Shown piece by piece: positions 8,268 to 35,738 of a stretch of DNA of 64,000 bases (position 1 is the first letter of the stretch; each line of letters starts with the position of its first letter). Source of the stretch: Candidatus Fluviicola riflensis (GTDB lineage Bacteria > Bacteroidota > Bacteroidia > Flavobacteriales_D > Crocinitomicaceae); the NCBI GenBank assembly GCA_002243285.1, contig CP022585.1:3336641-3400640 (forward strand), given 5' to 3'. The notes beneath the pieces are model-generated. The model saw only the letters and a program-made list of their open reading frames with translations. It had not been told where the DNA came from and did no database searches. A program made the position numbers and the translations under genes.

Positions 8268-8329
8268 AATGTGTTAGTGTTTGAGGGTTAATAAAATATA
8301 ACTTTGGGGAACGCGAATGCTGATCATCA

Positions 8330-9256: not shown

Positions 9257-9323
9257 AACGTTTACTTTTTTAATCGCCCAAAGGAAAGCAATAAAGAATG
9301 TTGTATCGGGCAAGAAAATCCTT

Positions 9324-9367
9324 AAGGTTCCTAATTTGAGATTCCCCGGGTTTGTGGGGGAGTGGGA
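9324..9367 (+). repeat. Left inverted repeat of hsdS inverton (44 bp)
   Basis: 44 bases identical to the reverse complement of 11456-11499. It encodes KVPNLRFPGFVGEW in the reading frame of the silent hsdS allele; identity stops within the following codon. Predicted recombination site for the adjacent tyrosine recombinase. Confidence 0.93.
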
Positions 9368-13130: not shown

Positions 13131-13353
13131 CTCAAATGTATTTAATTGAGGATATTTGTTTTTTCGACAAACATTGGCAGAGTGAGACTTATGAAGAAAT
13201 CTGCTTTCCCAATTCCCCATTTGTGTTTCCGAAACTTTGGGTTTTTATTTCCCAAAGTGATTCAGAAACAGATTATTTCTCCCAAAATAAACCATGGAAT
13301 GGAACATCAATTTCTATTGATAAATGTCAGCTAATCAAATTCTATCAAACGCC

Positions 13354-13724: not shown

Positions 13725-14636
13725 TCATGTTACCCCATTAGTTTGGATTGGTAAAACTGAAACATTTCCTCTACTCGCCGGGCAGAGTTCAATTAGTACT
13801 TCCAGTGTTCCTTTGAAGTTTCGCAATTCAGTTGAAATCCAATCTTGTTTTTCCGGATTCATTCCAATTTCGCTTGAAGGAATTATCATATTAATCAGTT
13901 TATTCAATGTTTGAAGAGTTGTAGGTATATCCCAATAAGCTTCAGTAGCACCTCGATATCTATTGATAATCGGCCTTGAAGTTTTTTCAAATACACCGAT
14001 TTCGTCAGAGGGATTATTCCTTTTGTATAATAGGGTTGTAGAATGAATGTCATTGATGTTTCCAGGAAGAACTATTTTAAGGCTGAATGGTATGTCATCT
14101 TCCAATCTTTTCTTTGCCAGTTTTTGTACGAAGTTCTCAAAATACCCTAGCGCTAACGCCGCTGATGCTACTGGACGCAAGTTGTAAGTTTGCTGCGACA
14201 AAATGATTGCTTCCTTAATTTGTTGTACTGCTGCTTCAAGACTACCTTCAATGTCGCTTTCAAAATATGGAACTGTAATCCCATTATAATCTGTTGGGAG
14301 TTTACTATGCTTTTCAACTAAAAGAAACGCTCTGGTAAAACCTAAACTTCCCAGAAACATACCCATTTCAAACATTACATTATCCCGTGGAGTATGAGTT
14401 TCTTTACCCCTACTTTTTGTTATGTCATCTTTTGTAGCTACTAAAATCCCGTAATCATATTTTCGGGAAGCTTTCATTAATGAATCAAGAGCACTGGCAT
14501 TCAGGTCGAAAACAGCCCCTCCATCCCATAAATCACATTCAAGCCAATCATTCAATTCCGATTCAATTTCTTGTTTAAGTTTTAATGCAATGACCTTCCC
14601 CTCAGAGGAAGATCCAATAAATAATTTACGTTTCAT
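13725..14636 (-). CDS. cap12: TIR-STING CBASS effector (Cap12-like)
   Basis: A 303-aa effector. Residues 1 to about 125 are a TIR-like domain of the CAP12/Pycsar type: FIGSSSEG at 7-14 and the signature RDNVMFEMGMFLGSLG at 84-99, where E90 corresponds to the catalytic Glu of NAD-cleaving TIR-STINGs. Residues about 150-303 match a bacterial STING domain: an opening helix ASAALALGYFENFVQKL (like the dimer helix of animal STING), then a conserved RPIINRYRG and WDIPTTLQTL segment, whose Asp236 sits where bacterial STINGs contact cyclic di-GMP. In known systems the cyclic dinucleotide makes STING oligomerise, activating TIR NAD+ hydrolysis and killing the infected cell. It starts one base after the CD-NTase stop (TAA-A-ATG), so the pair is translationally linked. 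A SAVED domain is excluded by size and motifs. Confidence 0.87.
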   Translation of the reverse strand: MKRKLFIGSSSEGKVIALKLKQEIESELNDWLECDLWDGGAVFDLNASALDSLMKASRKYDYGILVATKDDITKSRGKETHTPRDNVMFEMGMFLGSLGFTRAFLLVEKHSKLPTDYNGITVPYFESDIEGSLEAAVQQIKEAIILSQQTYNLRPVASAALALGYFENFVQKLAKKRLEDDIPFSLKIVLPGNINDIHSTTLLYKRNNPSDEIGVFEKTSRPIINRYRGATEAYWDIPTTLQTLNKLINMIIPSSEIGMNPEKQDWISTELRNFKGTLEVLIELCPASRGNVSVLPIQTNGVT

Positions 14637-14637
14637 T

Positions 14638-15660
14638 TTATGAATAGATTAGGTTCCCTTTTTCAAAATAAGTTAAATAGATTTCCTTTTGTACATCCTC
14701 GATTAATTGATCCAAATCAGCTTTAATCAATTTCATATCCGGAACAATGTCTTCTGTTAGCGGGCTTTCTGTTCCGTTGGGACTTTCAACACTTGAACGG
14801 TAATAAGGATTGTTAATCAATTTATCGAGTTGATTACTGAGAGCCTTCGCAATAGTAATATCCTTACCCGGATAATGATAAATTACAGAATTATCAATTG
14901 AGTGAACAATTGTCGTAATTTGAAAACTGGTTAGTCCGATTTTTTCTATTGAATCCGCTTTAAGTGTTTTTAATAGCCGAATTCCCATTCTTGAGCCATC
15001 GTTTGTCGCGTCTCCTTTGAAGTTTACCTCTCGCATGTGGGCAAAGGGATAATCAAGTTCTTTTTGATCTTTCGTAAAATCGAATAAGTATAAACCCTTA
15101 TAATAATCATTTTTAGTTTCATGATATTCCTTAGAATAATACCAAAAACAGAAAACAAGATCAACCTTTCTTTTTAGGGATTTGTTAAATATCGTAATCC
15201 CTTTTTTACCGGATTTATCAACCTCATCATAAATCATTTCCATTATCTTCTCAGACTGTCTTCTGAGCTCTTTAATATCGGAATTTGGATCTGACTCATT
15301 GTATGGATATTGATTTGGAACCCCAGGACCAGGAAAATGGTATCGACCTATTATTGTGAGGAGATCAATATCACTATGAATAATGATATTGGTTGATGTC
15401 ATTACTGATCCCTGCATCCAGTAATCTCTTTGGAAATGCAGGTTCAATTTTCCCTCTAAATGACTTTGGACCTTCTTAGCTGCATCTATAGTTTTATCGT
15501 TGTACTCTTTATCGATTTTTGTCATTGATTCCATCAAGTATTTGATATTTTTTGGAATCTCAGAAAGGTTAAAAGATTTAGTAAGCCTGGATTCATTGAT
15601 TTCATTATCAAACCTTCTATTTCTAAGATTTTGTAATCTCTGTTCGTAATTTAATGCCAT
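14638..15660 (-). CDS. CD-NTase (cGAS/DncV-like nucleotidyltransferase)
   Basis: The CBASS signal-generating enzyme, 340 aa. The polymerase-beta-type active site is intact: GS at 84-85 (MQGSVMTST), the SDIDLL motif with D97 and D99, and the third acidic residue D167 in RKVDLVF. A downstream helical part (SRMGIRLLKTLKADS...LTSFQITTIVH) matches the CD-NTase substrate lobe. STING-linked CD-NTases known from Bacteroidota belong to the CdnE clade and make cyclic di-GMP; I infer that product from the neighbouring STING but cannot show it. It starts at the ATG at 15660, 8 bases after a 45-aa peptide gene, and is followed directly by the effector. No ubiquitin-like cap2/cap3 genes are present, so it is a type I (two-gene) CBASS. 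Confidence 0.9.
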   Translation of the reverse strand: MALNYEQRLQNLRNRRFDNEINESRLTKSFNLSEIPKNIKYLMESMTKIDKEYNDKTIDAAKKVQSHLEGKLNLHFQRDYWMQGSVMTSTNIIIHSDIDLLTIIGRYHFPGPGVPNQYPYNESDPNSDIKELRRQSEKIMEMIYDEVDKSGKKGITIFNKSLKRKVDLVFCFWYYSKEYHETKNDYYKGLYLFDFTKDQKELDYPFAHMREVNFKGDATNDGSRMGIRLLKTLKADSIEKIGLTSFQITTIVHSIDNSVIYHYPGKDITIAKALSNQLDKLINNPYYRSSVESPNGTESPLTEDIVPDMKLIKADLDQLIEDVQKEIYLTYFEKGNLIYS

Positions 15661-15954: not shown

Positions 15955-17778
15955 TCAATCCACCATCAGCAACTTACACGGCGACGGATCAATGGCCACC
16001 AGCATTGATCGTGACAAGCTCGGTGTAGACACAATTGCCTGGCCCGGAGCTAAATTCGGAAGCCTGCTCCAGAGGTTGTTGTCGACACCACCAATGGAAC
16101 GTTTCAGGCGGCTGACCACATTGGAATCACTGATTTTATGCAGGATGTAACTGTTGATGAGGCCAAGGACTTCGTCGGGTAAATGCTGCGGAAGCTGTGT
16201 TACGAAGATCAAACCGAGCCAGCGTTTTCTTCCGCGACGTGCAATACGGGCTACCTGCTGGAAGAGGTTCGACATTTTCGAAATTTTGTCGCTGGACAGG
16301 AATTCGTGCGCTTCTTCGATGATGATCGAAACAGGCGTAGGCGATTTTTCCTGGCTCATCGCCAGTTCATAAGACACTTCCTGCGCTTCCTGCACACCTC
16401 TGAGCAGATCGGTGATGACAATATTGTTGATGATCGTAGAGTCTGAATCACTGAGATCGATAATGGTTAAATTACCAGGCTGTATGAGTTCAACGTAAGG
16501 AATAGTTTTCGAATCCCGATTGTCAAAGAGATTTGTACGTGACAACTGCCACAATTTCGAAAGCAAAGCATTCCAACTTGATTCACTGCTGGTTTCGACT
16601 GTAATTATCCGGGGTCTTACTTTATTATTCAGATGTTCTTTTAGGATCCCATTGTAAGGAGCCAGTTCCTTTTTACCTACCATGTTACGAATCATGGTCA
16701 CCACATCAATGAATAGTGATAAGGTGAGCTTTGGCCATCCGGTTTCAAATTCATCCAGTTCAATAGCTTCGCGCTCTTCTTCCTGGTTTGGGTAGATCCC
16801 AACGTCTCTAAGAATGAGTTTTGCTGCATCGTATGCTTTAAAAAATCGGCCAACCTGGGCTTCATTTAACCCCAAAATATCGGCGACAGCATAAGGTGAT
16901 AAGGAGGAAAAGCTGAGCGTAAACGGAAGGATGTTGGTCCCTTTTGTAGCACGGGTATCCTTCCCATGAAGGTGCAGAACACGTACGTTTTTTATTCCGG
17001 CCGCTGCAATCCCCCTGTTTGCCAGCAATTTCTGCATGGTCGAATCGGCTGTAGGTTCACCTACATGCGTGTATTCACCTTCGGTATCAATAACGATGGT
17101 TGCAATTCCTTTTTGCTGAAACTGGCTCATCAAACCGGAGATCGTGGTGGATTTCCCTCCACCGGTGGTTCCCAGGATTCCGATGTGCCGTGGTAAAACC
17201 GCTTTGGTATCGGAAGGAATTTTGACTTCGATGTTTTCATGACCGATTGCCATTCCAAGTGTAATGCCCGGCGCGGGATTTACTTTCAGAACGTCTGCGG
17301 TTTCTTCGCGGCTTAACACAAATACCGGGCTGTTGGGTAAAGGCCTGAATCGCGGTGGCATGATTATTCCGTCCAGTAATTCGCCGATAAGCTCAATCTG
17401 CACTTTTCCGTGAAAATTAGGCATGAACAAAGCTCCATTGATGGCCGTGGTGACAATCATCGGAGAATCTCCACGAATGCCATCCGGTTCATGAAACGGC
17501 CCTGCGATTACTATTCCGCGATAGATTCTGCCATCACCTTCGTTTTCGGTTGTACGGCTTCTGATCTCGACAATCGAATGGGCTCCGATTTCCCGGATAT
17601 GGTTTTTCGGGATCAACACGGTAATCAGGTTGTCTTCACTGTTCGGAAGATCAAACATCGTCATTCCGATTGCTCCGACACAATTCGCATCATTTTGCCA
17701 TTCACCACCATTAGAGATGATTTCGTTCGTAATGACCGTGAAAAGGTCCGTTTGCTCGCTGTTATTATTCGTTTCCAT
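15955..17778 (-). CDS. herA: HerA-family DNA translocase ATPase
   Basis: A 607-aa ATPase of the HerA/FtsK superfamily. An N-terminal HAS-barrel-like region (RGIVIAGP, 88-94) precedes the ATPase core: Walker A GTTGGGKST at 203-211, IDTEGEY at 230-236, and the Walker B-like IIIEEAHEFL with its catalytic Glu pair in the last third. HerA rings form hexamers that act on DNA with a partner nuclease or NADase and are recurrent in anti-phage systems. The start ATG at 17778 lies 2 bases after the stop of the preceding gene, so the two are surely a pair. A 148-base gap separates it from the peptide/CD-NTase/STING genes, which may have their own promoter or be read through. Confidence 0.9.
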   Translation of the reverse strand: METNNNSEQTDLFTVITNEIISNGGEWQNDANCVGAIGMTMFDLPNSEDNLITVLIPKNHIREIGAHSIVEIRSRTTENEGDGRIYRGIVIAGPFHEPDGIRGDSPMIVTTAINGALFMPNFHGKVQIELIGELLDGIIMPPRFRPLPNSPVFVLSREETADVLKVNPAPGITLGMAIGHENIEVKIPSDTKAVLPRHIGILGTTGGGKSTTISGLMSQFQQKGIATIVIDTEGEYTHVGEPTADSTMQKLLANRGIAAAGIKNVRVLHLHGKDTRATKGTNILPFTLSFSSLSPYAVADILGLNEAQVGRFFKAYDAAKLILRDVGIYPNQEEEREAIELDEFETGWPKLTLSLFIDVVTMIRNMVGKKELAPYNGILKEHLNNKVRPRIITVETSSESSWNALLSKLWQLSRTNLFDNRDSKTIPYVELIQPGNLTIIDLSDSDSTIINNIVITDLLRGVQEAQEVSYELAMSQEKSPTPVSIIIEEAHEFLSSDKISKMSNLFQQVARIARRGRKRWLGLIFVTQLPQHLPDEVLGLINSYILHKISDSNVVSRLKRSIGGVDNNLWSRLPNLAPGQAIVSTPSLSRSMLVAIDPSPCKLLMVD

Positions 17779-17780
17779 AA

Positions 17781-18953
17781 TTACGCCTTTATTTTTGTCA
17801 ATACATCTGCCCGGATATAAGCCTGGTCAATCGATGTCATGAAATCATTTTTCCCAAACGCATTTTTGCATAAATTTTCTGCCAGGTCCAATAACATCGG
17901 AATTCCGGAATGCATCTGAAGTGCGCTGTCGGCCATGGCAATCAATGCGGCCGTTTGAATGTGATCGACATGACAATAAAACACTTGTGGTGGTGAAAAT
18001 TTGGATACTTTATACACTCCCACAGCGATCTGAGCTCCGGCTATTCGGGCAAATTCTTCGTAGTCATTCTTAATTTCCGAACGCGTATTCCCCGATTGGA
18101 CCATCTGTACCATTTTATCCTCCATCGTGTCCACAATAAGGTATTCAAAAGGATTGAGCGCATTGCCAAATGCCCACAGTTCGGGATGCATGGTACTTTC
18201 CTGAACATAGACAAAGCGTTTATGATTGACAATCATCCGATGCATCAGGTCAATGGATTTGTCTTTCACCTCTTCGCGGCTGGCCCAAAAACCCATCATC
18301 AGTTCATACGGTGCAGGAAATCCGTAACCCAATAACCACTTTGAGTCTGTTTTTTCAAGCAGGATTGCCCGTTCAGCATACGCTTTGATACTGCGCATAG
18401 CTAAACTATTGAGTTTCGTTTTGTCGTCGCTTCGCCGGCGTTCAATTAACTCCTTCGCTTCGTCAAGGATGCTGCTTCGGTCAAATTTCAGGTCACGGCG
18501 AAACAATTGGTGGGAATAACTGCCGTGTTGTCCCTGGTAATTCACCAGGCAGATTCCCATTTGCGTAATAGAAATGGGGAGTGAATCGTACATGACGCTC
18601 ACACTCCCACATGCCGTAACAGCTCCGTTGAAGAGAAAACCTTTGTGGATTTTCTCTATTAATTCAGGAGTGGTGTCGCTGTGCAATCCGGCATACGGAA
18701 CCAAAGCGTTCTCCTTAATTTTTGGAAACACCTCTTTTCGAATTACCTGATTCGATTCAAGCTCATTACGTTTTGCCGTAAAGAGTTCCTTTTCAATCTG
18801 GGAATACAGTTTTGAAAGATCCCTGTCGATCTTCCAGGTTTCGATATTGATTGCATCAATGTAATCTTCACCGTACAATTTTTTGAAATCCTCAAAGGAA
18901 ATCCGGCCATATTGTTTATAGGAATCTTCCGTTCCCGGGGTGTTATTTTCCAT
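17781..18953 (-). CDS. HerA partner, possibly a divergent NurA-like protein
   Basis: A 390-aa protein tightly coupled to HerA (2-base gap), the position of NurA nuclease in HerA-NurA pairs. Features resembling NurA are the order of a central beta-rich region (FNGAVTACGSVSVMYDSLPI...GICLVNYQGQ), a following HR-x-D segment (LFRRDLKFDR), a helical stretch with RSIKAYAERAILL, and a late block with FYCHVDHIQTAAL. However, the usual DG motifs that carry the catalytic Asp residues are not obvious: the first site reads TACGS and the second GYGFPAP. It may be a strongly diverged NurA, a non-nuclease adaptor or a different family. The assignment rests mainly on context. ATG at 18953. Confidence 0.5.
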   Translation of the reverse strand: MENNTPGTEDSYKQYGRISFEDFKKLYGEDYIDAINIETWKIDRDLSKLYSQIEKELFTAKRNELESNQVIRKEVFPKIKENALVPYAGLHSDTTPELIEKIHKGFLFNGAVTACGSVSVMYDSLPISITQMGICLVNYQGQHGSYSHQLFRRDLKFDRSSILDEAKELIERRRSDDKTKLNSLAMRSIKAYAERAILLEKTDSKWLLGYGFPAPYELMMGFWASREEVKDKSIDLMHRMIVNHKRFVYVQESTMHPELWAFGNALNPFEYLIVDTMEDKMVQMVQSGNTRSEIKNDYEEFARIAGAQIAVGVYKVSKFSPPQVFYCHVDHIQTAALIAMADSALQMHSGIPMLLDLAENLCKNAFGKNDFMTSIDQAYIRADVLTKIKA

Positions 18954-19004
18954 AACTGCGTAGTGTTTCTTATTTTATTCCGGAAAAAATGCCGGAGTTC
19001 GACA

Positions 19005-19760
19005 CTAAAGTCCAAGTTTGTCTAAAAATGATGGACCGTTGGTGATCGAATAGGCCAGTTCTACTGCATACTGATGCGCGACTTTGGCCGGAATCTGATA
19101 GTTTTTCATTAATATTTCCTCGCATTTTCGGGTAAATTGATTGTAATTGAGCCGCCTTGCCGTTGCAATGGTGCCTTTGATCACAACGGATCGCGGGGCC
19201 AGTAATTCCAATGCCAGGTAATCTGCTTCGTTTTCCGAAGTGTAGTTCATCCAATTCAGGAAAGAACCGTCACCGCTTTTTTCAATCAAATGTGTGTAAG
19301 GCTGGATACTGATTCCTTTAATCAATGCTTTTACCTGCTGAAAACGCGTCGCTTCCGCTTTTCCATTCAGTACATCCTCGATTTCAGTTCCTATTGCCAA
19401 CATGGCTTGTTCCCGCGGCATTTGATAATCCAGCAAAAAATGACTCACCTCATGCGCAATCGTAAATCGCTGCTGAATAGTGCCGTCATCGGCATTTACG
19501 AAGATGAAACCAAATCCTTCACGGATCATAATAACGCCATGTAATTCCCGGTCATTTACTTCAATCTCAATATCATTTACTCCCAGATTTTTTAACCAAC
19601 ATTCTATCACTTTCCAACTCAGTTGTTGAAGATGTACAACGTTGACCGGAAGCACATCATCAACAGCACTTGAAATATCGAGACCGTTTCGGTGTACCGG
19701 ATCTGCTTTTGACCAAAACTCGCGCGCGATTCGCTCAATTTGCGATTTGCTGAATCTCAT
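19005..19760 (-). CDS. ImmA/IrrE-family metallopeptidase (CapP-like)
   Basis: A 251-aa zinc peptidase of the ImmA/IrrE (COG2856) family. The metal site is HEVSH (H103, E104, H107), and the downstream ligand is in ENEADYLALELLAP (E178). In phage and CBASS regulation such peptidases (ImmA; CapP) cleave a partner HTH repressor after DNA damage and release transcription. Its start overlaps the stop of the upstream 120-aa HTH-like gene by ATGA, the same pairing as ImmR-ImmA and CapH-CapP, so I infer a protease-regulated switch. It is separated from the putative NurA-like gene by 51 bases. Confidence 0.85.
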   Translation of the reverse strand: MRFSKSQIERIAREFWSKADPVHRNGLDISSAVDDVLPVNVVHLQQLSWKVIECWLKNLGVNDIEIEVNDRELHGVIMIREGFGFIFVNADDGTIQQRFTIAHEVSHFLLDYQMPREQAMLAIGTEIEDVLNGKAEATRFQQVKALIKGISIQPYTHLIEKSGDGSFLNWMNYTSENEADYLALELLAPRSVVIKGTIATARRLNYNQFTRKCEEILMKNYQIPAKVAHQYAVELAYSITNGPSFLDKLGL

Positions 19761-20119
19761 TTCTTATCGTCCTTACCTTCTTCTTTGTCTCTTGCGGCCA
19801 TAAGAATGGTTCCCGTACCGGTGGTGAATTTCAGTACTGTATTTACGTGTTTGATCATCTTTGTCAATTTGCTCGTATCAATATTGACATATTCACTAAT
19901 GACTTTTATACGTGACATAAAATCCGGTTCGCTAATGTCAGGAGCCTTGCACAGTGCCAGTTCGTAATAACTGCTAAGCGAGCAATCAAGAACGTTGAGT
20001 AAGTCTGATTCAGTGATTTTTTCGAATTCACAGTACTTTTTTAGAGTATAAGCCATGAACTCATGGTTATCCTCCATGCGTGTAGTCGCATGTTTCAAAA
20101 AATTCAATTTTGTATTCAT
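19757..20119 (-). CDS. Small HTH-like protein, candidate repressor partner of the ImmA-type peptidase
   Basis: A 120-aa, mostly helical protein. Residues about 28-90 have the layout of a helix-turn-helix domain seen in small regulators: KYCEFEKITESDLLNVL, then CSLSSYYELALCKAP, then a DFMSRIKVISEYVNID helix. The C-terminus is a charged tail (ARDKEEGKDDKK). It overlaps both neighbours by ATGA (sigma-like gene upstream, peptidase downstream), indicating one translational unit. Position and size suggest a CapH/ImmR-like regulator, but it is not a canonical Xre-type HTH and the DNA-binding role is inferred. Confidence 0.55.
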   Translation of the reverse strand: MNTKLNFLKHATTRMEDNHEFMAYTLKKYCEFEKITESDLLNVLDCSLSSYYELALCKAPDISEPDFMSRIKVISEYVNIDTSKLTKMIKHVNTVLKFTTGTGTILMAARDKEEGKDDKK

Positions 20120-20754
20120 TGTATTAAGCTTTTAATCCCGTTTTTTGCATCGTTCCTTTCCAACACTTTCTTAATGCGGTCTTTGTGTTTTTTGACTTCA
20201 TCACGTTGCTCAGACTTCGTTAAACCTTCGATTTCCAGCACTTCGCTAAAAGGTTCTGTTTCCCGTTCGCTCGCGAGAACCATATAAGCAAGAATAACAT
20301 CTCTCTCATTTGGGAATAAACTTTCAAGTAAGTTCTGGATAGCTGTCATTGTCTCTTCGATTTGAATAGTGTCGTCTGTGGAACCACGCGGTTTTATAAT
20401 AGTATTCCAGAAATTTTCCTGGAGTTCGACATCTTCGGGTAAATCTTTTCGATTGAGGTGTTTTTGTTCTTTGAGAAGAATATTCTGGAGGTCCCTGTCC
20501 GCAGCTACAAGCAGAAAAGAAAACAGTTTATACTTCTCGGGGTTAAACGTACCGGGGTTGTTGTAGTATCCCAAAAGAGCTTCATTAACAGCTTCAAGCA
20601 AGAGCATTTCGTCTCTCCTTGCAGCAGTTTGGTACTTGTATTTCAGAATTTGAACAATCTTAGGCCCATACAACTTATCGAGTTTTGACAGGGCAATGTC
20701 CTTTTTATCCTGCACCGCCATATGCAGTTCCAGTTCTATAAGAGAAGCTTTCAT
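20116..20754 (-). CDS. Sigma-70-like protein
   Basis: A 212-aa protein resembling ECF-type sigma factors. Residues about 18-95 match a sigma region 2 pattern: an initial KLYGPKIVQILKYKY helix, then DEMLLLEAVNEALLGYYNNP-like spacing, then FNPEKYKLFSFLLVAADRDL. The C-terminal part (LFPNERDVILAYMVLASERE...SEQRDEVKKHKDRIKKVLERN) resembles a region 4 helix-turn-helix. Similarity is moderate, so binding to core polymerase is an inference. It sits at the head of the operon, overlapping a 47-aa ORF upstream and the HTH-like gene downstream by ATGA. It could direct transcription of the defence operon or respond to phage takeover of transcription. Confidence 0.6.
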   Translation of the reverse strand: MKASLIELELHMAVQDKKDIALSKLDKLYGPKIVQILKYKYQTAARRDEMLLLEAVNEALLGYYNNPGTFNPEKYKLFSFLLVAADRDLQNILLKEQKHLNRKDLPEDVELQENFWNTIIKPRGSTDDTIQIEETMTAIQNLLESLFPNERDVILAYMVLASERETEPFSEVLEIEGLTKSEQRDEVKKHKDRIKKVLERNDAKNGIKSLIQ

Positions 20755-21839: not shown

Positions 21840-21867
21840 ACCCGGGCAGGAAATTGTCCGGGTTTTT
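21840..21867 (+). terminator. Rho-independent terminator
   Basis: Stem ACCCGG-GCA with TGT-CCGGGT (9 pairs including one G-U, loop 21849-21854), followed by TTTTT. It ends the lipoprotein transcript, and its T-run overlaps the stop of the convergent kinase gene. Confidence 0.85.
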
Positions 21868-23743
21868 ATATGTCGATATGAACCGTTGCTACACAGCCGT
21901 TGTTATTGCTGTAACGAATCGTGCCATTCATTTTATGCAACAGTTTCACGATCAATCCCTGGCCTTTAACCGATTGGGCCTGCATCTGTTGTTCGGTAAT
22001 TCCGGGGCCGTTATCCTTTACGATCAATTCCAGTCCATTTTCAGATCGTTTTATGGAAACGCCTAATTCCGGTGTTCCGGATTGCAGCAAACCATGTTCA
22101 ATAGCATTGCAAATCAATTCGTTCAGCGCAATGGCCAGGCGCATGGCGATATCATAATCTAAATAGATGGCATCGATTTCGCACAGCAGTTTCAGCTTAT
22201 TTCTCCCGGGAAACAGGTTTAGAACAACCGTATCGATTACATGCGTAAGATAGGTGTCGAGCCGGATTTCCTTGTTTTGATGTGTCGAATCGTCGAGCAG
22301 GTACTTTTGCACCAATGACATGGCCTCGAGGCGGCGAATGTTTTCTTCCAGCACCTTCGTAGCTTCCGGGTGCGTCACCTGCAATTTATCTGATTTCAGG
22401 ATTCCGCCCAACAACCCGAAATAATTCTTGGTGCGATGGCTCAGTTCCTGGTGCAGATGGGTGATCTCGTCCCGTTGTTCTTCCAGCTCACGGTTTTGCA
22501 CTTCGATGTATTTCTTTCGCCTGCGGATCTGGTAAAACATCGCGGAAACAAGGCATGCCAATAGCGAGAGACCGATAATCCAACCGATCAGCCGCTGGTT
22601 TCGGAGTGTTTGATTCTCAATCCGGATTCCGTCCAGTTTCGCCTGTTTACGCCTCAAATCAATCTCGCGTTCCTTACGCTCTACGTCGTATTCAATCTCC
22701 AACCGGGCCATTTCCTTACGGTTTGCATCGTTCACACCTTTTTCACGTGTTTCAACCAATTCCTGGTATTTCTCCAGCAACGGATCATTTCCCTTCGACG
22801 TTTTCAGTACGTTGATTTCACCCAGTAGGGCATCAGCAAGCAATAAATGGTCACTTGATGAACGCGCCATTTCCTGTGCCTGCCTGAATAATTCCAACGC
22901 TTTGGAGCGGTCGCCGGTTGATGCATAATACGTTCCAAGATAATAGATACTGGATGCGGCTTTGGCAGAATTACCCATTTCCGCGCGCATTTCATAAGCA
23001 CTATTCAAATAAATCAAGGCTTTCTCCGGTTGCAGTTTTGCCACATACAAACGGCCAAGCGCGGATAAGGTGTTGACTGTATTGGATTGATTACTCAGCA
23101 CTTTCTTGCGTTTCAGGGCCTCCAATAAATACTTCCCGGCCTGATCATAACGCTTCCATTCCAGGTAAACTGTTCCGATATTGTGGTAAGAATCTGCCGT
23201 TCCTTTGTCGTACCCGATGGATTTGCGGATATGTAATGCCCGCCAGTGATATTCGAGCGCCTTCTCATAATTCCCTGTTTCGCGCTGAATATTTCCGATG
23301 GCATTCCAGGCTGCAGAGAGTTCTTTCCGATTTCCATACTTCTCCGAAAGCCTTGCAGCCTTTGTGATCACAGATGTTGCCTGTTTAAACGCGCCAATCT
23401 CTTTGTATGCCAATCCCAGGTTTAACAACGCCCCTGCTACCAGGCTATCATTGTTCAGCTTTCTGTACGCATCCAATGAACGTTCGTACGCATGAAGTCC
23501 TTTTTTATAGTCTCCGGTTTGGTAATACGCTACTCCAAGATTATTGAAAAAATCGGCTTTGGGTTCCAGATCAAGATCTTCGGGCACTACTTTTAATGCC
23601 TGTTCCAAGGTTTGTTTTGCAGCAGCGGATTTCCCATCGGCCAATTCCTGGTAACCTTTATCCGTAAGCGTATTGAAATTGGTTTGAGTGAATGCCTGGA
23701 AACAACACAAAAGATGCAGCAAGAATAGTGCGGACAGTTTCAT
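21866..23743 (-). CDS. TPR-containing sensor histidine kinase (HisKA_2 type)
   Basis: A 625-aa protein with a signal peptide (residues 1-20) and a periplasmic array of about six to seven TPR units (residues 25-330; repeats such as ALLNLGLAYKEIGAF and SYHNIGTVYLEWKRY). A charged coiled coil, one membrane helix (about 386-405) and a cytosolic kinase follow. The phospho-accepting His is H436 in LSHRTKNYFGLL, a HisKA_2 dimerisation motif. The HATPase domain has the N box NELICNAIEHGL and the G boxes DNGPGI and GQGLIV. It is divergent from a LytTR response regulator by 47 bases, and together they form a two-component system typical of Bacteroidota. A TACTTTTG box on the minus strand (23776-23769) may be its -7 element. 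Confidence 0.92.
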   Translation of the reverse strand: MKLSALFLLHLLCCFQAFTQTNFNTLTDKGYQELADGKSAAAKQTLEQALKVVPEDLDLEPKADFFNNLGVAYYQTGDYKKGLHAYERSLDAYRKLNNDSLVAGALLNLGLAYKEIGAFKQATSVITKAARLSEKYGNRKELSAAWNAIGNIQRETGNYEKALEYHWRALHIRKSIGYDKGTADSYHNIGTVYLEWKRYDQAGKYLLEALKRKKVLSNQSNTVNTLSALGRLYVAKLQPEKALIYLNSAYEMRAEMGNSAKAASSIYYLGTYYASTGDRSKALELFRQAQEMARSSSDHLLLADALLGEINVLKTSKGNDPLLEKYQELVETREKGVNDANRKEMARLEIEYDVERKEREIDLRRKQAKLDGIRIENQTLRNQRLIGWIIGLSLLACLVSAMFYQIRRRKKYIEVQNRELEEQRDEITHLHQELSHRTKNYFGLLGGILKSDKLQVTHPEATKVLEENIRRLEAMSLVQKYLLDDSTHQNKEIRLDTYLTHVIDTVVLNLFPGRNKLKLLCEIDAIYLDYDIAMRLAIALNELICNAIEHGLLQSGTPELGVSIKRSENGLELIVKDNGPGITEQQMQAQSVKGQGLIVKLLHKMNGTIRYSNNNGCVATVHIDI

Positions 23744-23790: not shown

Positions 23791-24483
23791 ATGAAGATTC
23801 TTATTGTAGAAGACGATCCACTAGTCGCTGATGATTTAAAAGATAAATTGGAACAACTCCAATACCGTATTACCGGTGTCGCGGAAAGTTATGACCTCGC
23901 CCTGGAATCGATCCGGAGCAATAAGCCTGACCTGGTGTTGCTCGACATCGAACTAAAAGGCGAACTGACCGGAATAGACCTGTCGGAAGAGTTAAACAAA
24001 CACGCGATCCAATTCATTTACCTCTCCAGCATCCAGGACCTGAATACTTACCACAAAGCAAAAGACACGGGCCCGCTGAAGAATCTTGCAAAACCGATCG
24101 ATCTCGTGAACCTTCGCAATGCGTTGCTGGACATTGAAACACAGATGGCGACTCCAAAACAAGAGTTGATTCACTTTTTTACCGATAAAGACCGGGTCCG
24201 GAAACGCATTGAACCCGACCAGATTGTTTACCTCGAAGGCGCGCGCAGCTATTGCGATGTTTATTTCCAGGACAATACCCGGTCTACACTGTCTACCAAC
24301 ATGGGAAATGTTGTAAAAAAACTAAACCACCCCGACCTGATCCAGATCAGCCGGTTCCATTACATCAACCGGAAACACATCAAACAGATCCGCGGAAATG
24401 AGGTTCAACTGACTGTCGGCCCGTTTCTCCGAATCACGGATTCGTTTAAGGAAGGGTTTAACGGGATGGTGAATTTGATTTGA
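23791..24483 (+). CDS. LytTR-family response regulator
   Basis: A 230-aa regulator. The receiver domain (1-120) has the acidic pair D8-D9, phospho-acceptor D52 (LVLLDIEL) and the conserved Lys in LAKPID. The LytTR DNA-binding domain (about 140-230) is recognisable by IVYLEGARSYCDVYF, STNMGNVVKKL and ISRFHYINRKHIKQI. It is the predicted partner of the divergent kinase at 21866-23743. Its targets are unknown; the shared 47-base spacer suggests that it may regulate its own locus. Confidence 0.94.
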   Translation: MKILIVEDDPLVADDLKDKLEQLQYRITGVAESYDLALESIRSNKPDLVLLDIELKGELTGIDLSEELNKHAIQFIYLSSIQDLNTYHKAKDTGPLKNLAKPIDLVNLRNALLDIETQMATPKQELIHFFTDKDRVRKRIEPDQIVYLEGARSYCDVYFQDNTRSTLSTNMGNVVKKLNHPDLIQISRFHYINRKHIKQIRGNEVQLTVGPFLRITDSFKEGFNGMVNLI

Positions 24484-24851: not shown

Positions 24852-25070
24852 TCACTCCATTCTACACTCCGTATACCCCATTGCTTTCGCTTCCGAAAGT
24901 GACACTTCCCTGCGTTCATGGGTGCAATGATTAAACCCGGAGCAATCTTCATCGTAATGATATCGTTCGGCTCCGGAACTGATACACACATGCACTTTAT
25001 TTCCTTTGGAGGAACAGCCGACCAACAAGAAGATGATAACAACAAATGCTACAAGTGTTTTCATATTCAT
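24852..25070 (-). CDS. Small Cys-rich lipoprotein
   Basis: A 72-aa protein with a lipoprotein signal (MNMKTLVAFVVIIFLLVGC, lipidation at LVGC). Translation may begin at either ATG (25070 or 25064). The mature part, VHVCISSGAERYHYDEDCSGFNHC...SLSEAKAMGYTECR, follows a common small-domain pattern (V-x-C-x(n)-YH...C-x-G...C...A...G...C) found in many bacteria without known function. It lies 19 bases upstream of no gene in the same direction; the membrane operon ends beyond it. Confidence 0.75.
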   Translation of the reverse strand: MNMKTLVAFVVIIFLLVGCSSKGNKVHVCISSGAERYHYDEDCSGFNHCTHERREVSLSEAKAMGYTECRME

Positions 25071-25089: not shown

Positions 25090-25599
25090 TTACTGCAACG
25101 GCACCAAACCTACATTCCGGCTTACCCAATCCAACAAAAGTGGTCGGAGAATTATGCCGCTAATGATTGCACCGAAAAAGACCATAATCATTCCTGCAAT
25201 AAGTGCCGGTGCCCAGTTATCTTCACTGATTTCTTTGTAAAGTCCTTTACCTGATTTAAACGTAGCTTTGAATACCATCTGAGAGAGTACAACCGACACT
25301 AGGTAGGTGAATAAGAAACCGATTGCCTGAAATCCGTAAAACGTCCAAAAACCTTTTGATTTTGCGCCGAAAGGAGACAAATCTTCCATATACACGAGTC
25401 CTTGCGGATCAATCCCCTGCAATACAATCAGCAATAAACCCAATAGTTGCATCGTGACAAAAAGCGCATACGCCTTGTTGCTACTTTCCAGAAAATAAGC
25501 CTTTTGCAATTGCCGTCTCCAAAAAGTCAAAACGGTATAAATCAATCCGGCAGTAATCATCAATTCTGCGATAAACAATGTCATTTTTTCCATATTCAT
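25090..25599 (-). CDS. Four-helix membrane protein, last gene of DUF4407 operon
   Basis: A 169-aa protein with four hydrophobic segments (about 7-25, 43-63, 86-110, 132-152), probably an integral inner-membrane protein. Polar loops include FKSGKGLYKEISEDNWAP between helices 3 and 4. No family is recognised with confidence; the layout is reminiscent of DUF350-like proteins. The start ATG overlaps the stop of the transglutaminase-like gene (ATGA), so it belongs to the five-gene operon 29885-25090. Confidence 0.7.
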   Translation of the reverse strand: MNMEKMTLFIAELMITAGLIYTVLTFWRRQLQKAYFLESSNKAYALFVTMQLLGLLLIVLQGIDPQGLVYMEDLSPFGAKSKGFWTFYGFQAIGFLFTYLVSVVLSQMVFKATFKSGKGLYKEISEDNWAPALIAGMIMVFFGAIISGIILRPLLLDWVSRNVGLVPLQ

Positions 25600-27224
25600 T
25601 CATTTAATTCAACATCCCAATAACGTATATTCCCGTTTTCAGCGGGTAGCTTCCCCAGTGAAAATCCTTTAGCGGTCGTTTCCCAGAAATAGTACCGTTT
25701 TGCATGATCCGTTTTATAACTCCCAACAATTCCCGGAAGATTGAGCCCCAGCATTGAATGGGTATAATAATCACTGTTAATGATTACTACATCGTAGCCA
25801 AAATGCTTTAAGATGGTATACAGCACTAAAGTGCGCGTGTCACAATCACCTTTCATGTCTGAAAGAAATTGCAAGGGTGTCCGTAAACCGTAAGGTGCAT
25901 TCCCAAGACATGGAACACCGGCTCGTAGCAATTCTACGACAGACGGCTCAGCCTTTCGCTCATTGCAGCTTCCATCTATTATCAATACGTAATCAATGGA
26001 TTGTACCATCGTAACGGCCACTTCTGCAAATTGGTAAGCGGTCAGGTTGTTTGATGTTCTGATACTGTCTAACATGCCATAAAGGCTACTAATCCTCGAC
26101 TTATCGTAAGCCGATATGAAACTGTAAATATCCCGGTAATCCGTCCACCAATTGCCGGTGTAATCTTCCAACCGATTCCCACTAGACAGCACATCGTCTT
26201 TCAACAGGGTATAAGTTCCACGGTAAGTTGTTCCCGACAAATCCTTCCAACGCATCCTGACAACGATTCTTTTTCGCAAAGAATCAGCTTGTTCTCCGTC
26301 AGTAGCTTCATCCTGATCTTCAGGAGGATCTACGTTTTGTATAGTAACGGTATCCCGGGTTTGATCGACCACTAGTTCTTCATCTTCAGTATGGTCTGAA
26401 CCTTCGGGAAGATGAATCAAACCATTGATCAGGAATACAAAAAAAGCAATGATAAATGTTAACCGAAAAAGAGTACCTATAAAACCCGTAACTCGCGGAA
26501 ATCTATGTAAAAACTGAATAATCGAGCTGATAAAAGCAATGATCAGCACAACTGCCAACCAGATAACAAATGGCAAGGCAACCCCCGATGACACAAAGAA
26601 AACAAGTTGTAACAACAAGAAACCTACAATAATCAAGGTTAAAATGGATCCCAAACATCCCCATGCAGAAACTCCCCCCGCTCCGCCAGAACCACCATCC
26701 GGTATATTTCTACCATTTCTCAAGTTACTACCTTTCGATTCCTTCTCTTCAATAATTACTTCCGGTTTCGTCTCTTCGTCCTTGGTAGTCGGCGTTTCTA
26801 CCTCATCGAGAGAAGTAATGCTTTTTGTAACGAGAATGGTTTCTTTCCGCGTCAATCGAAAAACAACAGGTACTGCTTTAAAATAGCCATGTATTTCACT
26901 TCCTTCTACCTGTTCGTGGGTAACAGGTATGTTTTCCGTGATGATCAATACTTCGGGCTTCAGGTCATACAGTTGCTTATTATATTTTCCCTGAATCATT
27001 CCATGGGTGGTGTCTAACCGAAGTACTTCAGGATTAGACAGGAATTTGCGTTCACTGATTTGACGGATCGTGCTGATCTTAATCTCATAGTACGTTTCAA
27101 GTCTAAAATGATTGTTTCCTTTTTCATCAGACATGGGACGATGTAATTCTCCCCTGTACTTGATGAAGGCCATACCTGTATAATACAGCTTTCGGTAAAC
27201 GATCTTTTCTTCCTGTTCCTCCAC
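25596..27224 (-). CDS. Membrane-anchored transglutaminase-like protein
   Basis: A 542-aa protein. Residues 1-135 form a beta-rich cytosolic-looking domain, followed by an acidic linker and a Gly-rich stretch, then three hydrophobic segments (about 190-212, 216-236, 250-271). A second acidic linker precedes a C-terminal transglutaminase-like papain-fold domain. The catalytic Cys is in MKGDCDTRTLVLYTIL (C461), the His in YYTHSMLGL (H489) and the third residue in YYFWETTAKG (E515, Glu in place of the more usual Asp). In bacteria such domains are usually thiol proteases or amidases. The start is GTG at 27224, overlapping the previous stop (TAGTG), which supports coupling. The substrate is unknown. 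Confidence 0.75.
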   Translation of the reverse strand: MEEQEEKIVYRKLYYTGMAFIKYRGELHRPMSDEKGNNHFRLETYYEIKISTIRQISERKFLSNPEVLRLDTTHGMIQGKYNKQLYDLKPEVLIITENIPVTHEQVEGSEIHGYFKAVPVVFRLTRKETILVTKSITSLDEVETPTTKDEETKPEVIIEEKESKGSNLRNGRNIPDGGSGGAGGVSAWGCLGSILTLIIVGFLLLQLVFFVSSGVALPFVIWLAVVLIIAFISSIIQFLHRFPRVTGFIGTLFRLTFIIAFFVFLINGLIHLPEGSDHTEDEELVVDQTRDTVTIQNVDPPEDQDEATDGEQADSLRKRIVVRMRWKDLSGTTYRGTYTLLKDDVLSSGNRLEDYTGNWWTDYRDIYSFISAYDKSRISSLYGMLDSIRTSNNLTAYQFAEVAVTMVQSIDYVLIIDGSCNERKAEPSVVELLRAGVPCLGNAPYGLRTPLQFLSDMKGDCDTRTLVLYTILKHFGYDVVIINSDYYTHSMLGLNLPGIVGSYKTDHAKRYYFWETTAKGFSLGKLPAENGNIRYWDVELNE

Positions 27225-28030
27225 TATTTCCAGTTCCTTAGGTTGACAAAATCTTCTGTTGATTGATAGGCAATTTCTTCCGAAATGCGTTGTGTATTGA
27301 ACGGCTCGTCGCTGTACTTGCGTTCGTGTTCGGTGTACTTTGGTCTTGATACATCTTTTATTGGCACGTACTTTTCGTAAGCCAATTTGTGCAATCGTGT
27401 TAGCTGCTCCTTAAAGTGCTCATGATTTGTCAGGACCATTCGTATTTCTGCATTTTTTTTAATTGAGAAGTATTCCTTTCGTTTTTTTAGCTGGAATTTG
27501 AGAATAATCGGTAACAGAAAAAGTAGCACAATTAAAGCCGTAAGCACCCATACCCACGGATGATGCAGGTTGAGTTGGATCATGTGTTCAACAAACAACG
27601 TTCCACCCACAGAACCAAGTCGTTGTTCCATTTCATGTAACACATCGGCATCAGCCAATGATCCGAACAACAATGTTTCCAAACATTTTGCTGTAAAAAA
27701 CGCAAAGAGTGTGACGGAGAAATAGCGAATTACATGGGTCAAAATCTTGGTCTTTAGCTCATCCTGATCACGCAATGTATAGGGCTCCAGACTCAACATA
27801 TTCAAGCGATAAATGCTCCCGATCAGGAAGGTCACTACCAGTGAGCAAGATGCTGCAATCCAAAACATCCCGAATACTTTCCAGAACAATCCACAAAAGG
27901 CAGCAAACATGAGGCCGATCACCAGTATGTACAATAATCCTATGGTCAGAAACCGATGCTGACTTTCACTACCTGATTTCTCCAAAATGGAACAATCGGC
28001 ACCTGCCATTTTCCAAAAGAACTGCCGCAT
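27224..28030 (-). CDS. DUF4407-related membrane protein (short paralogue)
   Basis: A 268-aa protein whose N-terminus (MRQFFWKMAGADCSILEKSG) matches that of the DUF4407 protein encoded just upstream (LMRQFWKAAGADRYLLERS). It has four hydrophobic segments: two near 30-70, one near 105-120 and one near 155-175. The long coiled coil of the full DUF4407 protein is missing. The soluble C-terminus is charged and ends in EEIAYQSTEDFVNLRNWK. It appears to be a diverged, shortened paralogue and could hetero-oligomerise with its neighbour. Gap of 3 bases to the upstream stop; 1-base overlap with the downstream GTG. Confidence 0.7.
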   Translation of the reverse strand: MRQFFWKMAGADCSILEKSGSESQHRFLTIGLLYILVIGLMFAAFCGLFWKVFGMFWIAASCSLVVTFLIGSIYRLNMLSLEPYTLRDQDELKTKILTHVIRYFSVTLFAFFTAKCLETLLFGSLADADVLHEMEQRLGSVGGTLFVEHMIQLNLHHPWVWVLTALIVLLFLLPIILKFQLKKRKEYFSIKKNAEIRMVLTNHEHFKEQLTRLHKLAYEKYVPIKDVSRPKYTEHERKYSDEPFNTQRISEEIAYQSTEDFVNLRNWK

Positions 28031-28033
28031 ACG

Positions 28034-29302
28034 TTATTCTTCGTCAAAGTATTTCTCTGGATTTTTAGCAATATCATCCAGTTTTTGTTTCTTCCAGTTT
28101 TCAATCACCTTCCGATTGAGTTCTTCCTGGGCCAGCAGCATGTTTTTTCGCTCCCTGCGCATAATTTCTGCCGGATGATTGACGACCTTATGCTTTTCCA
28201 ACCCGTTCTTGTCGGTATAAAAATCATATTCGATTTCGATGCCAATTTCTGCCTTGGCGAGCTCCTTAATGTTATCATCCATAAAATCATACGGACTTTT
28301 GATCAGCATCATTTTAAAGAAAATCGGTGTCAGCTCAATCACTACAAACAGCAAGGTGATGAATAACGAAATCCAGAAACCTGCTATCTGGTGTGCCAGT
28401 TGCAAGCGCAACAACAATCCATCCAATGAGTACTTTTTCTTATCATTAGTCAAATATTCTCCTTCTCTTTCAATTTCATATTTATCAATTTTTTTTTCAA
28501 GGACTTTAATCCGTTTTTCGGCAGCCACTTTCATGATTTTGTATTCTGCCTCCATTTTCTCAAGATTCTCTTTTTTATCCTGCCAGGCAGGACCTCTTCC
28601 TGGTGGATTGGGTGGTAATTGACCCGCAGCTTCCATCTCCAATTTCACCCTCTGTCCATTTAATTCTATACGTTGCACTTCAATTGCACCTTTCAATGAG
28701 TCACTTTCAAATTTGATTGGATTGACCTTATCATCAATTCCTTTATCCGTTTGATCATCAAGCTGTTTCTTGAATAATTGTTGTTTTGACGATATTTTAG
28801 CATCAATCTCCGACTTGAACATCCGGATCTCAATCGGTTTTGAAATCGTGAGTGCAATGATGATTCCCATAATAATCCGCGGAATCGCACTTTTGATTTC
28901 CTGTTTCGTAATCGCTTCCGTACCATCGCCTTTTCCGGTGGAAGTCACAATAAAACGGTCGATGTTGAAAATGATCAATCCCCAGATAAGGCCAAACACC
29001 ACCGACATAAACAGTGTGGGAAGATGGATCATATCCTCTACCCGCTTCGTCGATTTCAATCCGGTGGTTGTAAGCATTCCATCCAGGGCGTCTCCTTTGG
29101 GTTCAAAAATGGTGTAGATGGCATAACCACCCGCCAAACCGGCTAAAACACCAGTTGCCACCACAATTCCACCGAGGCAGAAGTATTTAATCTGATCGGA
29201 ATATGTACTTCGTTCCAACAGGTAGCGATCTGCTCCGGCAGCTTTCCAAAACTGGCGCATGAGCCATGTTGATTCCGGACTTTTGTAATAGTTGTTATTC
29301 AT
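28034..29302 (-). CDS. DUF4407 domain membrane protein
   Basis: A 422-aa protein of the DUF4407 family. It has the N-terminal FWKAAGADRYLLE motif, membrane segments near 38-62 and 95-115 with the characteristic FNIDRFIV, a third near 140-160, and a central coiled coil (about 165-300, rich in K/E/Q). A final membrane helix (FWISLFITLLFVVIELTPIFFKM) and a cytosolic tail with further coiled coil follow. Function is unknown; the form suggests a membrane-tethered rod facing the periplasm. It overlaps the first gene of the operon by 8 bases. Confidence 0.85.
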   Translation of the reverse strand: MNNNYYKSPESTWLMRQFWKAAGADRYLLERSTYSDQIKYFCLGGIVVATGVLAGLAGGYAIYTIFEPKGDALDGMLTTTGLKSTKRVEDMIHLPTLFMSVVFGLIWGLIIFNIDRFIVTSTGKGDGTEAITKQEIKSAIPRIIMGIIIALTISKPIEIRMFKSEIDAKISSKQQLFKKQLDDQTDKGIDDKVNPIKFESDSLKGAIEVQRIELNGQRVKLEMEAAGQLPPNPPGRGPAWQDKKENLEKMEAEYKIMKVAAEKRIKVLEKKIDKYEIEREGEYLTNDKKKYSLDGLLLRLQLAHQIAGFWISLFITLLFVVIELTPIFFKMMLIKSPYDFMDDNIKELAKAEIGIEIEYDFYTDKNGLEKHKVVNHPAEIMRRERKNMLLAQEELNRKVIENWKKQKLDDIAKNPEKYFDEE

Positions 29303-29885
29303 GTTCTTTCTGGTTATTGGCTAAAAAATTCAATAAGTCTTCTTCGAGCGATTGGTTAAGTGAAAAGGCTGTTCTCTTCAATGCTGGAAGTTTCAATTTT
29401 ATGGAAGGAATGGCTGTTTTTTGAATCGTTGGTTCTTTCAACCGAACAGTCATCGCTGGTACTCTTCTATTCGGTTCTTTTACCAGCAATTGTTTGTTGA
29501 AAGGAATAGGAGCAATCGATGGCTGATTATTTTCAATCACAAAAGAGCAACGTTTTCTATTGCCAATTCCTTTCGCACAAATGGTCAGTTTGCTTTTACC
29601 TTTGTCTACCGGCCAATGGATCTTAATCGGATGCCGGTCATTCAAAACCGGAATCGGCAGGCCGTTTATCATAATGAGGTATGAATTATTTGTAGAAATT
29701 GACAAGGAAATTGTAGAACCACCTCTCTTAACCGAATTGTCCTCCCCATGATTTTTCACATTGAGGGTAACAACGCGGTCTTTCCGAAAAATCAATTGAA
29801 GCAATCGTTTATTCAATGAATAGAAATGCTGGTAACAAAAGTGAAAGGCTGTCCTGATTTTTGTATACAGATGCTTAATCGCCAT
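29295..29885 (-). CDS. First gene of DUF4407 operon, unknown function
   Basis: A 196-aa protein if started at the ATG at 29885 (MAIKHLYTKIRTAFHFCYQ); a TTG start at 29918 is also open. A basic helical N-terminus is followed by a beta-rich domain (about 45-120: VTLNVKNHGEDNSV, STISLSISTNNSYLIMING, KSKLTICAKG) with an Ig-like alternation. A Pro/Lys-rich region and an acidic end (SLEEDLLNFLANNQKEHE) complete it. No signal peptide, so it is probably cytosolic. Its stop overlaps the DUF4407 start by 8 bases, so it belongs to the same operon. Confidence 0.6.
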   Translation of the reverse strand: MAIKHLYTKIRTAFHFCYQHFYSLNKRLLQLIFRKDRVVTLNVKNHGEDNSVKRGGSTISLSISTNNSYLIMINGLPIPVLNDRHPIKIHWPVDKGKSKLTICAKGIGNRKRCSFVIENNQPSIAPIPFNKQLLVKEPNRRVPAMTVRLKEPTIQKTAIPSIKLKLPALKRTAFSLNQSLEEDLLNFLANNQKEHE

Positions 29886-30376: not shown

Positions 30377-30649
30377 CTAACGAGTCAGTAGTATATCATC
30401 TATCTCATCCATAGCACCTTTTCCTTTCGTGATCATCTTCCTGACGTCAGGAAAATGATACGTTATTTCTTCACCCGCATTTTTACAGGCATCTTTTGCT
30501 TTTTGGATAACCTTTTCGAAGTTTTCCCATTTGCTATACCCCAGCAAAGCCTGTAATTCGCGCGCACTCCAGCACTCGACACCTTGCAACTCAGCGGCTG
30601 CGGCTTCAAATTGTTCAAATAGTTGTTTGATTTCTTCCGATTTCATCAT
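30377..30649 (-). pseudogene. dinD: Truncated dinD (DNA-damage-inducible protein D)
   Basis: 90 residues matching the N-terminal third of DinD: CWSARELQALLGYSKWENF, then KVIQKAKDACKNAGEEITYH and DVRKMITKGKGA...EIDDILLTR. It stops just where the full protein would continue into RYACYLIAQNG. E. coli DinD is about 274 aa, so this copy is broken. An ATG pair at 30649/30646 is kept. DinD in E. coli is LexA-controlled and inhibits RecA filaments; the fragment is unlikely to keep that role. Likely a decayed accessory gene. Confidence 0.75.
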
Positions 30650-35505: not shown

Positions 35506-35517
35506 CTACTTCGTTGG

Positions 35518-35601
35518 TACTCGGAGCGGGACTTGAACCCGCACGCCCAAATGAGCACAGGATTTTAAGTCCGGCGTGTCTACCAATTCCACCATCCGAG
35601 C
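35518..35601 (-). tRNA. tRNA-Leu (TAA anticodon)
   Basis: 84 bases, with GCTCGGA pairing to TCCGAGT (one G-U), D-loop TGGTGGAATTGGTAGACACG, anticodon in CTTAAAA (TAA), long variable arm and T-loop GGTTCAAGTCC. The CCA end is not encoded. The extra-arm length and sequence fit leucine. Confidence 0.95.
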
Positions 35602-35665
35602 ATTTCCCATTACTGGAATAAAAAAAGGATTCATCCGCCGTGGCTGACAAATCCTTTGGTATTCG

Positions 35666-35738
35666 AGCGGGAGACGAGATTCGAACTCGCGACCCCAACC
35701 TTGGCAAGGTTGTGCTCTACCAACTGAGCTACTCTCGC
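35666..35738 (-). tRNA. tRNA-Gly (GCC anticodon)
   Basis: 73 bases beginning GCGAGAGTAGCTCAGTTGG. The anticodon loop CTTGCCAAG carries GCC, and the T-arm is GCGAGTTCGAATCTCGT. The acceptor stem has one A-C mismatch. Transcribed ahead of tRNA-Leu, probably as one transcript. Confidence 0.93.

Follow-up and report, generated by a model that had tools for sequence, protein, structure and literature searches.

A conserved five-gene membrane operon of Candidatus Fluviicola riflensis links DUF4407 and DUF350 proteins to a transglutaminase-like enzyme

Five closely packed genes in the genome of Candidatus Fluviicola riflensis (GCA_002243285.1), four of them encoding membrane proteins, raise the question of whether they form a single functional unit and what that unit might do at the cell envelope. 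The operon occupies positions 25090 to 29885 of the window, the 64,000-nucleotide stretch of CP022585.1 (positions 3,336,641 to 3,400,640) that was analyzed, and its five open reading frames (ORFs) all lie on the minus strand (Table 1). Sequence families were assigned with Pfam and PADLOC-DB 2.0.0, structures were examined with AlphaFold2, VIA-align, and Foldseek, and profile-profile comparisons were performed with hhalign. The interpretation to which we assign a probability of roughly 0.45 is that the five gene products form a single machine in the inner membrane, an accessory system for envelope surveillance or defence that is inherited patchily among defence genes. An earlier reading made from the letters of the DNA and their translations (the sequence-only reading) had described genes that overlap or lie no more than 3 bases apart, and the coordinates agreed, with an 8-base overlap, a 3-base gap, a 1-base overlap, and a 4-base overlap at the successive junctions from gene 1 to gene 5. 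Promoter and terminator scans gave no signal above shuffle level. Within the source genome, DUF4407, DUF350, and the enzyme each gave a single match, and all of these were at the operon.

The two DUF4407 genes were examined against PF14362, for which the cut-off is 31.3 bits. Gene 2 scored 207.9 bits, and its model contained a long helical hairpin (residues 163 to 225 and 238 to 293) between membrane helices 3 and 4, in keeping with the full DUF4407 protein with helices and a long coiled coil that the sequence-only reading had proposed. The alignment-averaged loop charges of this protein (+1.1, -1.4, +2.2, and -1.0) predicted a periplasmic location for the hairpin. The match of gene 3 in the window was weak and below the cut-off (21.5 bits), while relatives of gene 3 exceeded it (37.8 bits, or 34.4 bits with its neighbours in the frame), and profiles grown from gene 2 or gene 3 converged on an equal number of ORFs (136). 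The relatives above the cut-off and the profile convergence indicated that gene 3 is a real, shortened DUF4407 paralogue, as had been supposed. Foldseek matches of DUF4407 to ABC exporters (best E value of 0.0015, root mean square deviation of >29) were rejected as matches between long helices. Standalone DUF4407 proteins share the family, the four helices, and the long coiled coil, but all 20 of the standalone copies examined were unlinked to an enzyme or DUF350 gene, and a role for DUF4407 as a general enzyme companion was rejected on this basis. The lone DUF350-profile match in the standalone set was weak (L161; 3.9e-4) and fell on the DUF4407 protein itself. Gene 5 matched PF03994 with 41.8 bits (cut-off, 26), and 33 of 48 relatives also matched this family; the four-helix membrane protein of the sequence-only reading was thus present, and its identity as DUF350 had been missed. 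Gene 1, a putative Ig-like cytosolic protein of the sequence-only reading, had no predicted membrane segment and no clear PDB profile match.

Linkage was assessed through a scan of named genomes with the enzyme alignment (A2), which yielded 108 relatives in 129 stretches, the best 80 loci being retained for counts. Judged by record titles, 79 of the 80 were from Bacteroidota or groups within that phylum, and one was from an alphaproteobacterial metagenome-assembled genome. At least two DUF4407-family genes were found immediately upstream of the enzyme gene at 60 loci (full loci), and a further five had one such gene on a contig that ended within ~1.5 kb. DUF4407 was absent upstream at the remaining 15 loci, of which L020, L062, L065, and L078 (long-form or cut), plus L091, were near a contig end, and the other 10 had a short enzyme (267 to 358 amino acids) with >3 kb of sequence upstream. 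A DUF350-like ORF was present directly 3' of the enzyme at 76 of the 80 loci; three of the other four were at a contig end (L029, L058, and L062), and one was without it (L066). A small ORF preceded the DUF4407 genes, in the slot of gene 1, in 54 of the 60 full loci. The median intergenic gaps were 2, -0.5, and 5 bases, and the conserved order spanned at least three Bacteroidota classes. Presence of the same gene order in most of 80 independent loci indicated that the operon grouping is not fortuitous, and the linkage in other genomes that the sequence-only reading had called for was found in the 60 full loci, with five more cut by contig ends. A set of chance neighbours without a common function would be compatible with the unlinked standalone DUF4407 copies and with the 10 roomy loci devoid of DUF4407, but is contradicted by the conserved order and near-zero spacing and is highly improbable. 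Overall, the enzyme and DUF350 make up the constant core of the cluster. The DUF4407 pair and the small protein go with the long form of the enzyme, and a further partner with an OmpA domain is optional.

The enzyme consists of an N-terminal domain, transmembrane helices, and a C-terminal domain (residues ~320 to 542) carrying the putative catalytic residues C461, H489, and E515. All 84 relatives in the alignment shared this triad, which had been proposed from the sequence alone, as well as G459, D460, and T517. An AlphaFold2 model built with 52 sequences had a predicted local distance difference test score of ~95 over residues 320 to 540. The best VIA-align matches of the modelled domain were two structures of LapG (4u65, Z score of 9.4; 4fgq, Z score of 8.9), followed by Streptococcus pyogenes TglA (8.8), yeast PNGase (8.7), and factor XIII (8.4); these alignments covered 132 to 154 residues, and transglutaminases were also among the top rows, with Z scores of 8 to 9.4. 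This consistent set of middling Z scores, together with the triad, indicated a transglutaminase/papain-like fold for the modelled domain, which is where the sequence-only reading had expected the triad to lie. Sequence profiles were less informative. The window enzyme matched no Pfam family at an E value of ≤1, Transglut_core included; four of six relatives matched Transglut_core at E values of 0.00039 to 0.049, each under the cut-off. Searches of PDB profiles with alignments of the enzyme, DUF4407, DUF350, and the small protein returned nothing usable, and Foldseek with the enzyme model returned no row at an E value of ≤0.001.

The structural likeness to LapG raised the question of whether the enzyme could be a LapG-like periplasmic protease that frees a surface adhesin or lipoprotein upon a change in a cytosolic signal. 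The two proteins have in common the closest modelled fold, a Cys-His-acid triad, and a probable periplasmic site, and the membrane anchor with its odd number of transmembrane helices in the model would also fit. LapG itself is soluble in the periplasm and under the control of LapD, whereas the present enzyme has a membrane anchor, an N-terminal domain, Glu as the third residue, and other gene partners, including a dedicated membrane cluster that travels with it. Moreover, the window enzyme had no match to Peptidase_C93 (PF06035) at an E value of ≤1, and only one of six relatives matched weakly (14.3 versus 27 bits). No conserved adhesin gene turned up in the neighbourhoods, where no search was aimed at a LapD-type receptor or adhesin. 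We consider a LapG-like function improbable.

The evidence on the orientation of the enzyme was indirect. The model contained three helices ahead of the enzyme domain (residues 191 to 212, 216 to 239, and 243 to 270), in line with the three-helix protein of the sequence-only reading, and some relatives had, by eye, a single N-terminal hydrophobic stretch (L012, L013, and L026). Cysteines C420 and C439 were conserved in 76 and 79 of the 84 relatives, respectively, and such a pair would suit a periplasmic disulphide. The N-terminal domain was homologous to that of the OmpA-domain protein described below (hhalign probability of 91.9; E value of 6.9e-7), which suggested that the enzyme is probably periplasmic. 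Taken together, the three modelled helices, the single-stretch relatives, this homology, and the cysteine pair made the periplasmic side the most likely location of the enzyme domain. A DnaJ domain, which is a cytosolic domain, was present in 7 of 52 aligned enzymes (L011 and L087 included) and was N-terminal in L011.

An extra protein of >250 amino acids was encoded between the short DUF4407 paralogue and the enzyme in 30 of the 60 full loci. An OmpA match was detected in 26 of 34 aligned extra proteins, and their profile matched the peptidoglycan-binding domains of OprF (the best match; E value of 1.1e-30), Pal, and MotB in the PDB. Loci that carry the OmpA gene separated from those that lack it on the enzyme tree (7 changes versus 31.7 in shuffled data), and the window cluster belongs to the type without it. 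The tree had 83 rows, L014 having been left out and L009 to L011 removed as duplicates of L037, L055, and L087; Bacteroidota classes were interleaved, which falls short of proof of transfer, and the window row was on a long branch with unsure placement. Enzyme and DUF350-like pairs with no DUF4407 upstream (L083, L089, L090, L091, and L093, and also L072) fell inside the OmpA-type clade, which suggests that they arose by loss of the other genes. A second recurring group of neighbours, encoding proteins of ~450 and 160 to 195 amino acids, was seen near OmpA-type clusters (L051, L055, L057, L071, L072, L075 to L078, L084, and L092); the examples scanned (L084 and L051) had no Pfam match. The peptidoglycan-binding domain of the extra proteins would be expected if the enzyme were a wall-modifying one, guided by OmpA, that severs or makes peptide linkages within peptidoglycan, and the top Foldseek row for the enzyme model was the pseudomurein endoisopeptidase PeiP, with a nonsignificant E value of 0.075. 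The OmpA gene is, however, missing from the window cluster and from the other 30 full loci, and no amidase or wall-enzyme gene was recognized as a conserved neighbour, leaving this function a long shot. The extra protein also recalls Zorya (ZorA/ZorB), in that an inner-membrane protein of the relatives has a peptidoglycan-binding domain of the OmpA/MotB type and lies near defence genes; in contrast to Zorya, no ZorA/MotA-type match was found among the five genes, a thiol enzyme is present, and the window cluster has no OmpA protein.

The sequence-only reading had stated that nothing in the operon points to a known pathway. The assignment of gene 5 required that this be amended, since DUF350 corresponds to YjfL, a family that the passages retrieved from PMC11237479 place in PspA/polyamine envelope operons with lipoproteins. 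Those operons resemble the present one, as far as these passages describe them, in having a four-helix DUF350 protein beside an enzyme and an occasional lipoprotein, and differ from it in that the enzyme here is transglutaminase-like rather than an ATP-grasp enzyme or aminopropyltransferase, PspA is absent from the genome, and the cluster includes two DUF4407 proteins, joined in relatives by an OmpA partner. PspA (PF04012) had no match in the source genome (9 of 14 controls matched), and no glutathionylspermidine synthase/ATP-grasp enzyme (PF03738) was found there; matches to spermine synthase (PF01564) lay at 1.79 and 2.99 Mb, >370 kb from the operon at ~3.36 Mb. The lack of PspA and glutathionylspermidine synthase led to the rejection of a PSP operon and pointed to a distinct DUF350 module with an envelope-side thiol enzyme. 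Among the matches listed, literature searches on DUF350, DUF4178, YjfL, and mixed terms gave no description of the cluster. In the literature passages retrieved for DUF4407, the family appeared only in tables, the passages found for DUF350 with transglutaminase did not describe this operon, those on transglutaminase in an anti-phage context concerned a different giant-protein system, and the retrieved part of PMC7159879 contained no description of the cluster.

These comparisons raised a further alternative, that the operon is a chromosomal envelope-homeostasis module like YjfL/PspA, in which DUF350, an amide-forming or -breaking enzyme, and a lipoprotein are induced by a two-component system and repair the membrane or wall rather than act on phage. 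Besides the DUF350 operons of PMC11237479, as described in its retrieved passages, the flanking genes are consistent with this explanation. Among the 60 full loci, 12 had a homologue of the 72-amino-acid lipoprotein-like protein within the flanks retrieved, against 0 of 40 controls; a response regulator was nearby in 11 of 60 versus 0 of 40, and homologues of the TPR kinase were nearby in 18 of 60 versus 3 of 40. Relatives carried a different type of regulator from the LytTR protein of the window. The lipoprotein and the regulator were both present at 10 loci and may form a separate neighbouring unit. The absence of PspA and glutathionylspermidine synthase and the remoteness of the spermine-synthase matches argue against envelope homeostasis, as does a sparse occurrence that better suits an accessory than a housekeeping role, and we consider it rather unlikely.

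The occurrence of the cluster was examined in 296 genomes sampled from the phylum, and the enzyme was present in 7. Four of these had the five-gene cluster (the window genome, G068, G041, and G253), two had the enzyme with an adjoining DUF350-like gene only, and one had a remote relative elsewhere. This last enzyme (L014, in G228) has proteins of 722 and 982 amino acids as neighbours, in a set of genes unrelated to the operon. When 395 genomes were searched with a profile, 23 gave matches to the enzyme domain, of which many were weak. The cluster is patchily distributed and probably accessory. Among viral contigs, 24 pattern matches to the enzyme were obtained and none was confirmed as a relative, giving no sign of a phage-borne enzyme.

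Defence surroundings were examined with six seeds from the window (HsdR, HsdM, HsdS, TIR, HerA, and Bro-N), the window itself being excluded from the count, and 40 stretches drawn at random from 15 complete genomes in the class served as controls. Seven of the 60 full loci had seed homologues in their flanks, compared with 0 of the 40 controls (P = 0.040) and 0 of 10 enzyme-plus-DUF350 loci. In a PADLOC scan at 1e-15, 120 flank ORFs matched 114 families and 120 control ORFs matched 25; the 25 listed for the flanks included TmtA, PDC-S18, PDC-S05, Cas1, and HsdS, while DpdF models dominated the controls, along with PsyrT, WYL, and MotB-type entries. The enrichment near defence genes that the sequence-only reading had suggested looking for was thus present. 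Its proposal of an envelope-stress or defence machine gained from this enrichment and stays conjectural.

Several observations weigh against the interpretation of the five genes as one surveillance or defence machine. The enrichment of defence genes is modest and the control set is small; 53 of the 60 full loci had none of the six seed genes in the fetched flanks, and the PADLOC tallies count redundant families rather than proteins and hence indicate a trend, not a number of genes. No PADLOC family matched any of the five genes at an E value of ≤1. A structure search with DUF4407 gave no interpretable fold match. For the enzyme, the alignment-averaged hydropathy had two blocks, not three, the number of membrane segments in single sequences varied (two in 25 of 61 and three in 21 of 61), and a flank-charge test of orientation gave no signal (26 of 61).

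If the five genes do encode such a machine, DUF350 and the transglutaminase-like protein would be its catalytic core in the inner membrane, with the enzyme domain in the periplasm and a sensor-like domain or, in some relatives, a J-domain facing the cytosol. The two DUF4407 proteins may form a scaffold in the membrane from which a long helical hairpin extends into the periplasm, and the OmpA-type partner, found in about half of relatives, would tether the machine to peptidoglycan. Most likely, a signal that reports infection or damage to the envelope would then cross the membrane and release the thiol enzyme, which might cut or rejoin a protein of the envelope or a peptide of the wall. In a more specific form, which we put forward tentatively, the operon would be a new system against phage or other intruders, with a membrane-anchored thiol enzyme of the transglutaminase fold acting in the periplasm as its effector. 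This effector would be gated from the cytosol via DUF350 and the DUF4407 coiled-coil scaffold and wall-tethered by OmpA in half of cases. To our knowledge, most known bacterial defence systems act from inside the cell on nucleic acids, nucleotides, or membranes. If the anti-phage form is true, the system would, unlike most of these, work on the envelope side, and bacterial immunity would gain a periplasmic effector that modifies or cleaves proteins. The cluster joins DUF4407, DUF350, and a transglutaminase-like family that Pfam does not recognize, three families without an assigned function, and the putative catalytic cysteine gives a testable handle on the role of DUF350, a question left by the PSP/polyamine operons.

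Table 1. Positions of the operon genes and of neighbouring features in the window
Feature	Position	Strand	Basis or remark
Gene 1, small soluble protein, 196 amino acids	29295-29885	-	No Pfam match at an E value of 0.001 or better
Gene 2, DUF4407 protein, 422 amino acids, 4 membrane helices	28034-29302	-	PF14362, E value of 2.7e-61; model
Gene 3, shortened DUF4407 paralogue, 268 amino acids, 4 membrane helices	27224-28030	-	PF14362, 1.6e-4; relatives; profile convergence
Gene 4, membrane-anchored transglutaminase-like enzyme, 542 amino acids, GTG start	25596-27224	-	Triad; modelled fold
Gene 5, DUF350 (YjfL family) protein with 4 transmembrane helices, 169 amino acids	25090-25599	-	PF03994, E value of 1.4e-10
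Probable accessory, 72-amino-acid lipoprotein-like protein with YHY...C.G...C pattern	24852-25070	-	19 bases past gene 5
Possible accessory, TPR histidine kinase (HisKA_2)	21866-23743	-	Pfam; homologue counts
Possible accessory, LytTR response regulator	23791-24483	+	Pfam
Type I restriction-modification, HsdR (5352-8267), HsdS, HsdM	5352-13220	-	PADLOC
TIR plus prokaryotic STING protein	13725-15660	-	PF10137, 2.1e-26; PF20300, 1.4e-15; adjoining 340-amino-acid protein without Pfam match
HerA-type ATPase, 390-amino-acid protein, and M78-type peptidase with weak capP similarity	15955-20754	-	
90-amino-acid Bro-N piece	30377-30649	-	PADLOC PDC-S13 (1e-32)
tRNA-Leu and tRNA-Gly	35515-35738	-	Side opposite the restriction genes

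The remaining features of the window lie on both sides of the operon. PADLOC detected HsdR, HsdS, HsdM, a TIR effector, and HerA, all on the minus strand and ~7 to 20 kb from the near end of the operon. Other ORFs intervene between HsdR and HsdS. The 390-amino-acid neighbour of HerA had no Pfam match at an E value of ≤0.01. The Bro-N piece matched the first 90 positions of the longer PDC-S13 model and is apparently truncated, and the tRNA pair possibly marks the edge of a genomic island. The TIR-STING gene and its 340-amino-acid neighbour probably represent a pair of the cyclic oligonucleotide-based antiphage signalling system (CBASS) type, and homologues of the TIR protein and of this neighbour were found again near the operon at two loci, L038 and L050.

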